In this document: in pieces, positions 16,584-64,000 of the stretch | How positions within the stretch are numbered: the first letter of the stretch is position 1 | Layout of the letters: each line of letters opens with the position of its first letter | DNA from: Sinimarinibacterium sp. NLF-5-8 | Lineage (GTDB): Bacteria; Pseudomonadota; Gammaproteobacteria; Nevskiales; Nevskiaceae | NCBI RefSeq assembly: GCF_010092425.1 | Contig: NZ_CP048030.1 | Coordinates: forward strand, 124,001 to 188,000 | Direction of reading: 5' to 3' | Length of the DNA: 64,000 nucleotides | Position numbers and translations under genes: made by a program | Notes under the pieces: generated by a model | What the model was told of the DNA's origin: nothing | The model's database searches: none | Seen by the model: only the letters and a program-made list of their open reading frames with translations

Positions 16584-16603
16584 TTCTCTGTTCTTGCCCC
16601 AAC

Positions 16604-16632
16604 AAAAACGCCCGCGAAAAGCGGGCGTTTTT
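16604..16632. terminator. Bidirectional intrinsic terminator between the BI-1 gene and rpoH
   Basis: AAAAACGCCCGC (16604-16615) pairs with GCGGGCGTTTTT (16621-16632) around the loop GAAAA, giving a perfect 12-bp stem with U-runs in both directions. It lies between the BI-1 stop at 16583 and the converging rpoH stop at 16685. Confidence 0.93.
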
Positions 16633-16684
16633 GTTTTTGCGTCATTGAAAAGCGCGCGGTGTCGCCGCCTCCGCAGACCGGTAC

Positions 16685-17554
16685 TCAGGCTTCGGCTTCG
16701 ATCGCCTTGCGCATTTTCTTCATGGCGGCGACTTCAATCTGGCGGATGCGTTCGGCCGAGACGCCGTACTCGTCTGCCAACTCCTGAAGGCCGGTTTTTT
16801 CCCCCTCGTGCAGCCAGCGCCGTTGCAGGATATCGCGTGAGCGCTGGTCGAGTGCATGCAGCGCCTGGAGCATCTGCGTTTCGCGCTGTTCCTGCCACTG
16901 GGTTTCTTCGACCTGGGCGATGCTGTCGTGTCCGTCGGCCAGATAATCCTCGGGCATGTAGGCATCGTCATCGTCGCCGGGCGAGGCGCTGAACGACACA
17001 TCGCCACCGCTCAGACGTGCTTCCATCTGAAACACTTCTTCGGGTTTGACGTTCAGATCGTCGGCAATCGCCTGCGCCTGTTCGGGGTTGAGCCAGCCCA
17101 GGCTTTTCTTGGATGAGCGCAGGTTGAAGAACAGCTTGCGCTGTGCCTTGGTGGTGGCAATCTTGACGATGCGCCAGTTCTTCAGCACAAATTCATGGAT
17201 TTCCGACTTGATCCAGTGCACGGCAAACGAGATCAGGCGCACGCCGACATTCGGATCAAAGCGCTTGACGGCCTTCATCAGGCCGATGTTGCCTTCCTGG
17301 ATCAGGTCGGCCAGCGGCAGGCCATAGCCGAGATAGCCGCGCGCAATGTGCACCACATGACGCAGATTGTGCAGAACCAGCTGCTGTGCTGCGCCCAGAT
17401 CCTGCTGGGTGTGAAGCTTTTCAGCCAGCTCTTTTTCTGCCTCGGCATCCAGCGCCGGGATTTGATTCACGCTGGCGATATAGGCATCCAGGCTGCCTGT
17501 CAGCGGCATCAGCGGCATGTTGTTGTGCAGGGTCACGGCAGTGGTTGTGGTCAT
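16685..17554 (-). CDS. rpoH: Heat-shock sigma factor RpoH (sigma-32)
   Basis: RpoH directs RNA polymerase to heat-shock promoters. The 289-residue product carries region 2 (GYLGYGLPLADLIQEGNIGLMKAVKRFDP), the RpoH box QRKLFFNLR, and region 4 with a helix-turn-helix (TGLQELADEYGVSAERIRQIEVAAMKKMR). The ATG at 17554 was chosen because GGGAG lies nine bases upstream and the predicted promoter would leave only a short leader; the ATG at 17575 would nearly coincide with the transcription start. A perfect CIRCE element covers the promoter, pointing to HrcA repression. The order rpoH-ftsX-ftsE-ftsY is conserved in many proteobacteria. Confidence 0.97.
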   Translation of the reverse strand: MTTTTAVTLHNNMPLMPLTGSLDAYIASVNQIPALDAEAEKELAEKLHTQQDLGAAQQLVLHNLRHVVHIARGYLGYGLPLADLIQEGNIGLMKAVKRFDPNVGVRLISFAVHWIKSEIHEFVLKNWRIVKIATTKAQRKLFFNLRSSKKSLGWLNPEQAQAIADDLNVKPEEVFQMEARLSGGDVSFSASPGDDDDAYMPEDYLADGHDSIAQVEETQWQEQRETQMLQALHALDQRSRDILQRRWLHEGEKTGLQELADEYGVSAERIRQIEVAAMKKMRKAIEAEA

Positions 17555-17578
17555 CTCAAGCATCTCCCATTTCATGCG

Positions 17579-17608
17579 ATATTAGCACTCGCGCAGTTGG
17601 AGTGCTAA
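17579..17608 (-). promoter_or_regulatory. Candidate rpoH promoter embedded in CIRCE
   Basis: On the minus strand TTAGCA (17603-17608) and TAATAT (17579-17584) are 18 bases apart and resemble -35 and -10 boxes of a vegetative promoter (4/6 and good). Start of transcription would fall about 15-20 bases before the ATG at 17554, just enough for the GGGAG site. Both boxes overlap the CIRCE repeat, so HrcA binding would block polymerase. The promoter is inferred, not proven. Confidence 0.5.
17582..17608. promoter_or_regulatory. CIRCE operator (HrcA binding site) upstream of rpoH
   Basis: TTAGCACTC (17582-17590), a 9-base spacer, and GAGTGCTAA (17600-17608) match the CIRCE consensus TTAGCACTC-N9-GAGTGCTAA at every defined position. 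CIRCE is the operator of the heat-sensitive repressor HrcA. It lies 28 bases upstream of the rpoH ATG at 17554. Confidence 0.95.
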
Positions 17609-17670
17609 AGCCGCAAAAAGTTCAGCCTTCTGCGCGCAAATCTGCATGGGGGGGCGTCGCGTGCGGCGGT

Positions 17671-18621
17671 TTAGCGTGGGGCGATCTGCATCAGGCGCCG
17701 CCAGACAGAGATCAGGGCGCCGGCCCAGCCGAGAATGATCCCGGCGAGGATCAGGGTCAGACCGTCGCCAAAGCCGAGGCCGCTGAGCTGATACTGGCTG
17801 TCATAGAGCTGGGCGAGATTGCTGGCGGGGCCGCGCAGCAGCAGCGTGCCGATACTGACCAGAATCCAGGCGAGGATGCCGCCGCCAAAGCCAAACCAGA
17901 AGCCGCTGTAGAGAAACGGGCGGCGAATGAAACTGTCGGGGGCGCCGATGAGCTTCATGACTTCGATTTCTTCGCGGCGGGCTTCGATATCCAGGCGAAT
18001 GGTGTTGCCGATGATCACCATCACCGACAGCGCCAGCAGCAGCGTGATGAAGCCCACCGCGCGATCGGCCATGGCGAGGATGGCGTACAGACGCTCCATC
18101 CATTGCTGGTCGAGCTTGGCCACATCAACTTCCGGCAGCCGTGACAGGCGTTCGAGCAGTTGCTGGACCTGTTGCTTTTCGGCGTTGCGTCCGGGGTTGA
18201 TGGCGATGACGGCGGGCAACGGGTTGTCCTGCAATACGTTCAGGGCTTCGCCAAAGCCGGAACGTTCGCGAAACTCGGCCAGGGACTGGTCGCGGGAAAT
18301 GTACTGGGTGCTGCCGACATTGGGATCGTTGCCGACCTCCCGGGCGAGAACCGCGCCGCGCTCGGCGCTGACCGTATCCTTGAGAAACAGGGAAATTTGC
18401 AGGCTGTCCTGCCACGAATAACCGATGGTGGAGAGATTGCGAACGGCAACGTACAGCGCCGCAGGCATGGCCAGGGAAATGCCGATCACCAGTGCCGTCA
18501 GGCTGGCGGCCACCGGCGTGCGGGTGAGCTTGCCCAGGGAAAACAGCAGGACGCGCAGATGTTCCTGCCCCCAGCGGGCCAGCAGATTGGGGCGTTCCAG
18601 CCCGATTTCAACCAAGGCCAT
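17671..18621 (-). CDS. ftsX: Cell-division protein FtsX
   Basis: The membrane subunit of the FtsEX complex, which couples ATP hydrolysis to septal peptidoglycan hydrolase activation. The 316-residue protein has one membrane helix at about residues 35-60, a large periplasmic loop (DPNVGSTQYISRDQSLAEFRERSG), then three helices near the C-terminus with the conserved RLDIEARREEIEVMKLIGAPDSFIRRPFLY segment. The start overlaps the ftsE end by 14 bases, so the two are translationally coupled. Confidence 0.96.
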   Translation of the reverse strand: MALVEIGLERPNLLARWGQEHLRVLLFSLGKLTRTPVAASLTALVIGISLAMPAALYVAVRNLSTIGYSWQDSLQISLFLKDTVSAERGAVLAREVGNDPNVGSTQYISRDQSLAEFRERSGFGEALNVLQDNPLPAVIAINPGRNAEKQQVQQLLERLSRLPEVDVAKLDQQWMERLYAILAMADRAVGFITLLLALSVMVIIGNTIRLDIEARREEIEVMKLIGAPDSFIRRPFLYSGFWFGFGGGILAWILVSIGTLLLRGPASNLAQLYDSQYQLSGLGFGDGLTLILAGIILGWAGALISVWRRLMQIAPR

Positions 18622-19357
18622 GAAAAGGCTCCCCGGCCAGCGTCATCCCCAGGGCGGAAGCCGCCGTGGGGCGTTTATCGGTGATCTGGCCGTTTTCGAG
18701 GTGGATGATGCGATGAGGCAAGGCCTGCACCAGGTCAATGGCGTGGGTGGCGATCAGGATGGTGACGCCGTGATCGTTGAAGCGCTGGAAGTTGCGCATG
18801 ATGTCCATCGCCATTTCCGGGTCGAGGTTGCCGGTTGGCTCATCGGCAAGGATCAATGCCGGTTTGGTGACGATTGCGCGCGCGATGCCGACACGCTGCT
18901 GTTCGCCGCCCGACAGGGTCAGCGGCAGCGCGCGTTCGCGGCTGAGCAGGCCGACGGTGTCCAGCGCGCCGCGCACCCGGCGGCCAATATCGCTGTAGGC
19001 GTAGCCGCGAATCACCAGCGGCAGGGCGACGTTGTCGAACACCGTGCGGTCGTTGAGCAAATTGAAGTTTTGAAACACCAGGCCGATTTTTTGCCGGAAC
19101 TCGGGAATCTTGCGTGGCTTGAGCGTGGCCAGGTTTTGTCCCATCACGGTCAGGGAGCCACGGCTGCTGCGTGACAGTGCGGCAATCAGGCGCAGCAAAG
19201 TGGTCTTGCCGGCGCCGCTGGGGCCGGTGATGTAGAGCATCTCACCCTGTCCGACCGAAAAGCTGATGCTGGCCAGCGCGTCGCGGCCATTTTCATAGCG
19301 GTAGCCGACACGGTCGAAGCGGATCAGCTCGGGCATGTCGCGGTCGATCAGGCTCAT
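18608..19357 (-). CDS. ftsE: Cell-division ATPase FtsE
   Basis: The ABC-type ATPase partner of FtsX. Walker A is GPSGAGKTT, the signature [14 protein letters not shown], and Walker [13 protein letters not shown] with the downstream H-loop ILIATHAID. From the ATG at 19357 the protein is 249 residues; the ATG at 19336 ([12 protein letters not shown]) matches usual FtsE starts and would give 242. Both exceed the typical 222 because of a C-terminal tail ([18 protein letters not shown]). ftsY lies 34 bases upstream on the same strand. Confidence 0.96.
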
Positions 19358-61987: not shown

Positions 61988-64000
61988 TCAACCGAGGGCG
62001 TCGAGCGGCAATGGCTCGATGCCGCGAGCCCGGTCGATTTTCTCCGCGACCTTGAAGGCGGCCTCAAGCTCCCCGATGCCGTATTGCCGCATCAACTGAT
62101 AGCGCTCGGCCTTCTCCTCGGGCTCAGTCATCGCCATGGCCAGGTAGAGACTCGGCGGCACGGCGCGGAACAGGACTTCCATCGACTTCGACAGGATCAC
62201 GCCTTCGCTGAATTTGCCGGACTCCTTGCGCGCCGACAGCATCAGCGCCTTCTGCGCCGGATTGAGTTCGCGGAAGCGCGCGACCTTCTCCACTTCGTCG
62301 GGCGGCATCGACAGGCAGATCCACCACTCGATCATCGACAGCATCGGTTCAGCGGCCTTGGGCAGATCGTCCAGGTTCTGCGTTGCCAGCCAGAACCAGG
62401 CGCCGAGCTTGCGCCACATCTTGGTGATCTTGACGACGTAAGGGGCGAGCAATGGATTGCGGGTGATGATGTGACCCTCGTCGGTGACGTTGACGATGGG
62501 GCGCCCCAGGAATTGATCCCGCTCGGCGATGTTGTTGACAGTGTTGATGAGCGAGATGTAGGCGATGGAAAGCTGCGCGTTGTAGCCCTCGCGTGCGAAG
62601 GTCGCCAGATCGACGATGGTGATGTCGGCCTCCGGCCATGGCGTGCCGGGTCGGTTGAACATTTCGCCATCCAGTCCCTGGCAAAACATATCCATCGCGT
62701 CCGCCATTTCCAGCAGGCGAGCGCGCCGGGCTTCGGGCAGCGCGGAATCGCTGGCGCGCTCGCGCAGGGCGTCGCGCACGTCCTCGGTCAGCACCGTGCG
62801 CTTCTCCGGCGCACAGCGATGCGCCGCGTCGAGAATGCACTGGCGGATCAGGCTGCGATCGGCGCGGGTCATGCGCGCTTCTTCCTTGTCCTCGCCGCCG
62901 GTAATCATCAGGCGGGCGGTGATCTCCAACTCGCCGAGCACGTCGCGCTGTTCATCGCTTTCGCTCGATGCGTCTTCGGGTTCCTGTTCCTCGTCCAGGG
63001 CATCGGCGTCCAGCGTCCGCACCTGGCTGGGCGTATCGACCAGACGCCACGCATCGGCGAAAGGCGCGAGGCTCACCCCGGCGCCGGGCGCGAGCTTCAC
63101 CCGATGCACCGTCAGGCCAAGGCGCTGGGCGAATTCGCCAAACAGACCGAAGCTGTTCCCCGCCTCGACGATGAACAGCCGGGGCCGGTAGATCGCGACG
63201 AGCTGGTTGAGGATGTTGTTGAGCGTGGCCGATTTGCCCGAGCCGGTCGGGCCGAACAGAAACAGGTGGGCATTCATCTGCCGGTCGCGCCGGTTGAGCG
63301 GGTCGAAGGCGACGGTGCCGCCACCGCGATTGAAGAAGGTGATGCCGGGGTTCCCGGTGCCCTGATTGCGCCCCCACACGGGCGCGAGATTCGCCGCGTG
63401 CTGCGCGAACATGAGCTGGGTGTACCACTGGCGTCGATCCCTGGCCGGGTCATAGAAGCAGGGAAGCCAGCGCAGGTAACTGTTGAGCGGCGCGACCTCA
63501 TCCTCCTCGCGCACGGGCAGGAGGCCGGCGTTGAGCATGACATTGGCGAGTTGCAGGCCGCGCGCATCGAGTTCGGCCATGTCGCGCCCGCGCAGGTAGA
63601 AGGCCAGCGCGCCACGGTAGAGCTTGTGCGAACTGCCGATCAGCGAACGTGCCTGCTGCACGTCCTGCCGGGCCTGCTCGGACGCCAGCGTTTCGCCGAC
63701 CGCTTTCTTGCCCAGGTAGTTCAGATGCGCTTCCAGTGCGTCCTGCGGCGTGGCGACGAGGGTGAGACACATCACAGTGTCCTCGGGCATCTGGTCGAAC
63801 AGCGCGTTGCAGGCATCGCCGCCTTTGCGCGTTTCCCCGGTCAGATGTCCGGTTGCCGGCGGCGTGCGCAGCCGGTCGAGCACCATGACCCGATGCGGCA
63901 TGTTGTCGAAGAACCAGATGCCGTTCGCCACGTCGGAGCGTGGCTGGCCGAAGAACAGCCGTTGCGAGAAGTCCGTGCCGCTGGCGAGTTCGACGTCGCC
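61988..64000 (-). CDS. traC: Conjugative transfer ATPase, VirB4/TraC type (TIGR03744, PFL_4706 family), 5' end outside window
   Basis: About 670 residues of a type IV secretion ATPase that powers mating-pair assembly. Reading continues to the window edge, so the start lies outside. Walker A is FGPTGSGKSATLNNIL (about residue 253 of the visible part) and Walker B-like VNVTDEGHIIT follows about 230 residues later. Flanking segments (FFNRGGGTVAFDPLNRRD, RFREWN-like ARFRELNPAQKALML) match this family. Its C-terminus is followed by the DsbA-like gene. Confidence 0.93.
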   Translation of the reverse strand, partial: GDVELASGTDFSQRLFFGQPRSDVANGIWFFDNMPHRVMVLDRLRTPPATGHLTGETRKGGDACNALFDQMPEDTVMCLTLVATPQDALEAHLNYLGKKAVGETLASEQARQDVQQARSLIGSSHKLYRGALAFYLRGRDMAELDARGLQLANVMLNAGLLPVREEDEVAPLNSYLRWLPCFYDPARDRRQWYTQLMFAQHAANLAPVWGRNQGTGNPGITFFNRGGGTVAFDPLNRRDRQMNAHLFLFGPTGSGKSATLNNILNQLVAIYRPRLFIVEAGNSFGLFGEFAQRLGLTVHRVKLAPGAGVSLAPFADAWRLVDTPSQVRTLDADALDEEQEPEDASSESDEQRDVLGELEITARLMITGGEDKEEARMTRADRSLIRQCILDAAHRCAPEKRTVLTEDVRDALRERASDSALPEARRARLLEMADAMDMFCQGLDGEMFNRPGTPWPEADITIVDLATFAREGYNAQLSIAYISLINTVNNIAERDQFLGRPIVNVTDEGHIITRNPLLAPYVVKITKMWRKLGAWFWLATQNLDDLPKAAEPMLSMIEWWICLSMPPDEVEKVARFRELNPAQKALMLSARKESGKFSEGVILSKSMEVLFRAVPPSLYLAMAMTEPEEKAERYQLMRQYGIGELEAAFKVAEKIDRARGIEPLPLDALG

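Follow-up and report, generated by a model that had tools for sequence, protein, structure and literature searches.

A predicted HrcA operator fused with a sigma-E-type promoter before rpoH in Sinimarinibacterium and related Gammaproteobacteria

Accounts of the bacterial heat-shock response usually treat the sigma-32 and HrcA systems as two distinct strategies. In enteric bacteria, rpoH, which encodes sigma-32, is controlled after transcription, and the rpoH gene of E. coli has a sigma-E promoter, P3. In other bacteria, HrcA is kept folded by GroEL; on heating, unfolded proteins take up GroEL, and HrcA becomes inactive. A 2003 study by Permina and Gelfand, which by its title reportedly covers the HrcA regulons of beta-, gamma- and epsilon-proteobacteria, may already list rpoH. 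For Geobacter sulfurreducens, a computational analysis from 2004 predicted CIRCE, the HrcA operator, before rpoH (PMC545781), in line with the remark in the initial annotation of the DNA studied here that such sites have been predicted in some proteobacteria. Specifically, a perfect TTAGCACTC-N9-GAGTGCTAA lies there at -51 from the start, in a genome with hrcA, just as at the present locus; G. sulfurreducens belongs to the delta-proteobacteria, however, and the passages of the paper that describe the site name no sigma-E promoter there (PMC545781).

The new analysis of a 64-kb stretch of Sinimarinibacterium sp. NLF-5-8 DNA (the window) and of its relatives suggests, with a probability of roughly 0.78, that the HrcA operator of rpoH is fused with the rpoH promoter, and that an HrcA block released by heat would join cytosolic signals, through HrcA, with envelope signals, through sigma-E. 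The operator is ordinary in kind: its HrcA part modestly extends the published prediction, and what is newer is the fusion with the sigma-E-type promoter. In the open-licence literature, judged mostly from listings, no account of a sigma-E promoter within CIRCE was found; subscription papers may have one.

The window contains a minus-strand row of the genes ftsY, ftsE, ftsX and rpoH, in which the following features surround the operator:

16685 to 17554, minus strand: rpoH, sigma-32, 289 amino acids from a conserved ATG at 17554 (profile match and genus alignment)
17564 to 17568, minus strand: likely ribosome-binding site GGGAG, kept in the genus alignment
17582 to 17608, minus strand: CIRCE, the predicted HrcA operator, with 18 of 18 defined bases, kept across the genus
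17671 to 18621, minus strand: ftsX, the upstream neighbour on the same strand as rpoH, from which read-through into rpoH is possible

The identity of rpoH follows from the TIGR02392 equivalog profile (393.8 bits against a cut-off of 323.1), and the nearest named RpoH, from a Nevskiaceae MAG, is 73% identical. The longest rpoH frame starts at 17575; since the genus alignment keeps GGGAG and the ATG at 17554, not the ATG at 17575, the start is placed at 17554, which leaves 27 bases between it and CIRCE. A pattern search confirms the perfect operator that the initial annotation had reported: TTAGCACTC-N9-GAGTGCTAA stands at 17582-17608 with 0 mismatches, and the slightly wider range given originally, 17579-17608, consists of CIRCE and the three bases that complete a TAATAT motif. 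At up to three mismatches, this is the single CIRCE match in the window, and none of 100 shuffled versions contained a match. At this threshold, two sites are found in the whole genome (3.2 Mb, 98% complete), the rpoH site with 0 mismatches and a groESL site with 2 (Cpn10 confirmed), and the reversed pattern has no match in it.

The genome also encodes both regulators. The hrcA gene, which the initial annotation had proposed to look for and whose absence would have counted against its proposal, is present and full-length (PF01628, E 6.9e-61; TIGR00331, 319.6 bits against a cut-off of 197.2), with grpE after it; the genome search at up to three mismatches found no CIRCE before hrcA itself. An rpoE gene scores above the TIGR02939 cut-off (288.1 against 236.15 bits) and adjoins rseA (PF03872, above cut-off).

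Comparison with relatives, another check suggested at the outset, speaks for the site. Within the genus, all 11 genomes have CIRCE before rpoH with no more than one mismatch, and the alignment keeps its arms while the spacer and most flanking bases vary. Among the best 80 RpoH loci of a species-level collection, CIRCE was found in 50, and in perfect form in 31, when up to three mismatches were allowed within 600 bases upstream and one locus almost without upstream sequence (L070) was scored as a miss. Loci titled Vibrio, Aeromonas, Haemophilus, Shewanella or enteric genera had no CIRCE upstream of rpoH at up to three mismatches.

At the level of the class, meaning Gammaproteobacteria in the broad sense including Burkholderiales, as taken from named relatives, 114 genomes were surveyed, one per family, and the 104 with a clear RpoH were used; the ten left out either gave no RpoH match or a best match no stronger than about 1e-60, and seven of them have hrcA. 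CIRCE stands before rpoH, again at up to three mismatches, in 70 of the 76 families with hrcA versus 4 of the 28 without it (Fisher p 4e-14, with families treated as independent), and the closest reversed pattern at these loci has 4 mismatches. An RpoH tree of 60 proteins chosen from the 104, including all 28 without hrcA, implies at least 13 changes of each trait, hrcA and CIRCE, but has only one independent pair on well-supported branches. Among the six families with hrcA but without CIRCE at rpoH, one (G107) has an intact right arm, but its left arm is weaker and its spacer shorter by one base; another (G044) still has an intact right arm. One of the four families with the reverse combination (G091) has a perfect CIRCE before groESL as well, so hrcA may be missing from that assembly.

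Because the arms are kept in the genus while the spacer varies, and because CIRCE is rare without hrcA, selection appears to act on CIRCE. As judged from these comparisons, CIRCE at rpoH would be a conserved circuit and not the oddity of a single genome, usually present and close to a rule among hrcA-bearing members of the class; the initial view that the arrangement is unusual and follows no general rule finds no support in the count of 70 of 76 families. That HrcA sits above RpoH, as first proposed, gains support from the same co-occurrence. HrcA control of rpoH is very likely, given that hrcA is full-length, that the operator covers the promoter region and that the two occur together across families.

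The promoter most closely tied to the operator appears to be of the sigma-E type, with two predicted elements in the window:

17618 to 17624, minus strand: sigma-E-type -35 element TGAACTT, a block in the genus alignment whose GAAC is in register at 51 of 74 rpoH sites of the class
17597 to 17601, minus strand: sigma-E-type -10 element TCCAA, spaced 16 bases from the -35, with CIRCE bases 8-9 as its TC

In the genus alignment, a conserved GGAACTT-like block, which we take to be the -35 of sigma-E-type promoters, begins 16 bases 5' of CIRCE. The window reads TGAACTT-N16-TCCAA, with 6 of the 7 bases of GGAACTT. At a 16-base spacer, a TCNNA -10 falls on CIRCE bases 8-9 and the first spacer bases, and the sigma-E-type promoter at rpoH looks like one whose -10 starts inside the HrcA operator. 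Lelliottia and Kluyvera have GGAACTT-N16-TCTGA before rpoH, so the site in the window resembles the enteric sigma-E promoter in -35, spacing and TCNNA; by contrast, the rpoH upstream regions of these two genera are without CIRCE at up to three mismatches.

Across the class, GAAC lies 14 to 16 bases before CIRCE at 51 of 74 rpoH sites versus 1 of 35 controls among the matches listed (p 1e-11). These controls are CIRCE sites before groESL (25) or hrcA (10) among the matches listed, not a random draw, and one of 36 loci (L212) was left out as it could not be assigned; GAAC in the rpoH register occurs at 0 of the 25 groESL and 1 of the 10 hrcA sites among the matches listed. Chance placement of GAAC was ruled out by its frequency further upstream (20 of 3700 positions), and a sigma-E/CIRCE fusion at any CIRCE by the single control case, an hrcA site. 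CIRCE leaves the fifth position of the -10 free. Of the 51 rpoH sites that have the -35, 48 carry an A at this position, as do 9 of the 23 rpoH sites lacking the -35 and 5 of the 35 controls among the matches listed.

The strongest evidence comes from a shift of register. The 80-locus survey and the class genomes together give 124 rpoH sites (species in both would count twice; L006, with 5 mismatches, was left out), and at 7 of these GAAC lies 11 or 12 bases before CIRCE, about 4 bases closer. In these loci (G101, L075 and those titled Diaphorobacter, L057; Curvibacter, L061; Variovorax, L072; Acidovorax, L073; and Hydrogenophaga, L082), TCNNA is found deeper in the spacer, not at the CIRCE edge, and in all 7 its distance from the -35 is 16 or 17 bases. 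Among all 10 off-register GAAC, 7 are accompanied by TCNNA; when CIRCE segments were swapped at random, this count averaged 0.58, and none of 2000 trials reached 7. With TCNNA kept at its spacing, the -35 and -10 move together. Sigma-E is not the whole story, since 22 of the 74 class rpoH CIRCE sites have GAAC in neither register. Around the host's own rpoE, the three best sigma-E-like matches per strand include none directly before rpoE, and as the window -35 is one base off, GGAACTT may not be the host's own consensus.

The groESL and hrcA CIRCE sites of the class share the operator sequence and presumably the same HrcA. At the groESL sites among the matches listed, mostly a CTTGA-type block is followed by TATTA or similar just 5' of CIRCE, an order that places CIRCE after the groESL promoter and not over its -10, unlike at rpoH. 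Of 369 class genomes, 122 contain the exact composite GAAC-N10-12-TTRGCACTC-N9-GAGTGCTAA. In a phylum sample of 299 genomes, 5 contain it; these 5 all belong to the 87 genomes of the same class as the window, and 0 of the 212 others have it. When 35 composite loci were checked, 33 lay just 5' of rpoH and in its orientation; of the other two, one precedes groESL and the other a Clp_N-domain gene. In this last locus (L336, G072:C8:47854-47895), the full sigma-E/CIRCE composite precedes a gene that is ClpB-like by eye, and rpoH in the same genome is without CIRCE, as if the target had changed.

A second promoter may overlap the other end of the operator:

17579 to 17587, minus strand: possible sigma-70 extended -10 TGC-TAATAT at the right arm of CIRCE, with a weak -35 TTAGCA at 17603-17608

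The initial annotation had placed the best -35/-10 pair inside CIRCE. This pair, TTAGCA-N18-TAATAT, is present and the bases that follow CIRCE are conserved, but it is weak, matching the sigma-70 consensus at 8 of 12 positions and staying under the scanner threshold (a sigma-70 promoter scan of 17500-17800 returned 0 sites), and the sigma-E-type promoter had been missed. The second and third bases that follow CIRCE are AT in 52 of 74 rpoH sites versus 3 of 35 controls among the matches listed, and also in 16 of the 22 rpoH sites with GAAC in neither register. Since this AT completes TGC-TAANAT and is conserved at rpoH, the right arm plausibly carries an extended -10 of the sigma-70 type. HrcA might then repress just a sigma-70 promoter built by both CIRCE arms (TTRGCA-N18-TAANAT), with GAAC incidental or part of another element. 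Of the 74 rpoH sites, 22 depart from CIRCE at base 3 of the left arm and 2 at the partner of this base in the right arm, as expected if the right arm serves as a -10; the excess fits a G-U pair in an RNA hairpin equally well, however, and does not decide. A sigma-70 promoter by itself would leave both the GAAC register and the joint movement of GAAC and TCNNA unexplained, and we consider this reading unlikely.

The G-U pair points to another possibility, in which the palindrome works chiefly at the RNA level, as a hairpin in the rpoH leader for mRNA stability or temperature sensing, and not as a DNA operator. The common base 3 change would keep the pair while the rare partner change would break it, and transcripts read through from ftsX would include the hairpin. 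Such a hairpin leaves unaccounted for why the palindrome is rare in families without hrcA. Moreover, a transcript whose start is set by the sigma-E -10 would, by the spacing, begin within the palindrome and not include both arms, and an Rfam scan of 16600-18700 at a lax threshold gave 13 matches, each under its gathering score and none over the CIRCE site. This reading is highly improbable. Equally slim is the chance that the operator is a leftover of little effect, with rpoH driven by read-through from ftsX, which lies 5' of it on the same strand with no terminator-like site found within 17500-17800 and could carry much of rpoH expression, and controlled post-transcriptionally as in enteric bacteria, since a leftover fits poorly with arms kept throughout the genus amid varying spacer and flanks and with the scarcity of CIRCE where hrcA is absent.

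The data are most compatible with the fusion of HrcA operator and rpoH promoter. In this model, HrcA bound to CIRCE would overlie the two -10 regions and keep rpoH low. Upon heating, HrcA activity would be lost and rpoH released; free sigma-E would raise rpoH further under envelope stress, once HrcA is off or low. RpoH and the loss of HrcA would then both act on groESL. What the analysis shows directly are the sequences, the genes, conservation, the co-occurrence with hrcA and the joint movement of -35 and -10; where transcription starts, that HrcA binds and represses, and that heat lifts the repression are inferred. If HrcA represses rpoH in most class members that have both, the two systems would form one cascade, in which GroEL capacity sets the amount of sigma-32 through HrcA, beside the control of sigma-32 activity by DnaK. 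The composite promoter further predicts that the same bases serve the repressor and sigma-E.

The composite also offers a possible route by which the enteric sigma-E promoter of rpoH originated. A sigma-E-like match of 9 or 10 out of 10 positions is found in 41 of the 74 class genomes with CIRCE and in 6 of the 30 without, compared with 4 of 104 upstream sequences when reversed; the other 24 genomes without CIRCE have no strong sigma-E match. In one genome without an hrcA match (G077), rpoH is preceded by TGAACTT-N16-TCTTA; a TTGGCACTC resembling the left arm spans the edge of this -10, and CIRCE is absent at up to three mismatches, a single case that fits the loss of CIRCE after the loss of hrcA. 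A broader proposal, which we hold tentatively and rate at a little under even odds, is that hrcA-bearing members of the class possess an rpoH gate, with the sigma-E -10 written into the HrcA operator, that joins envelope stress with cytosolic chaperonin shortage. The enteric sigma-E promoter would then be a remnant after hrcA loss, and the textbook circuit reduced, not ancestral.

The second CIRCE of the host genome, before groESL (L002 1501-1527, that is 63523-63549), carries two altered bases in one half (TTAGCAGCC) that are identical in 11 of 11 genus genomes, and groES lies 3' of it in the 7 genus genomes checked. Repression by HrcA may be looser at groESL than at rpoH, or another factor may use the altered half. 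In Xanthomonas, Luteimonas and Lysobacteraceae (L006, L007 and L015) and in G020, the left CIRCE arm upstream of rpoH is altered toward GCAGTC, and the right arm reads GACTGC in L006 and L015; the altered arms of the Xanthomonas/Luteimonas/Lysobacteraceae lineage may reflect a changed HrcA specificity. Another rpoH upstream region (L151, from G018) has a degenerate CIRCE-like palindrome immediately 5' of a perfect CIRCE. Finally, at several loci of the 80-locus survey (L026, L045, L052, L053, L022, L080 and others), CIRCE stands 130 to 270 bases before the matched rpoH frame, far more than in the window and enough to allow a long leader.
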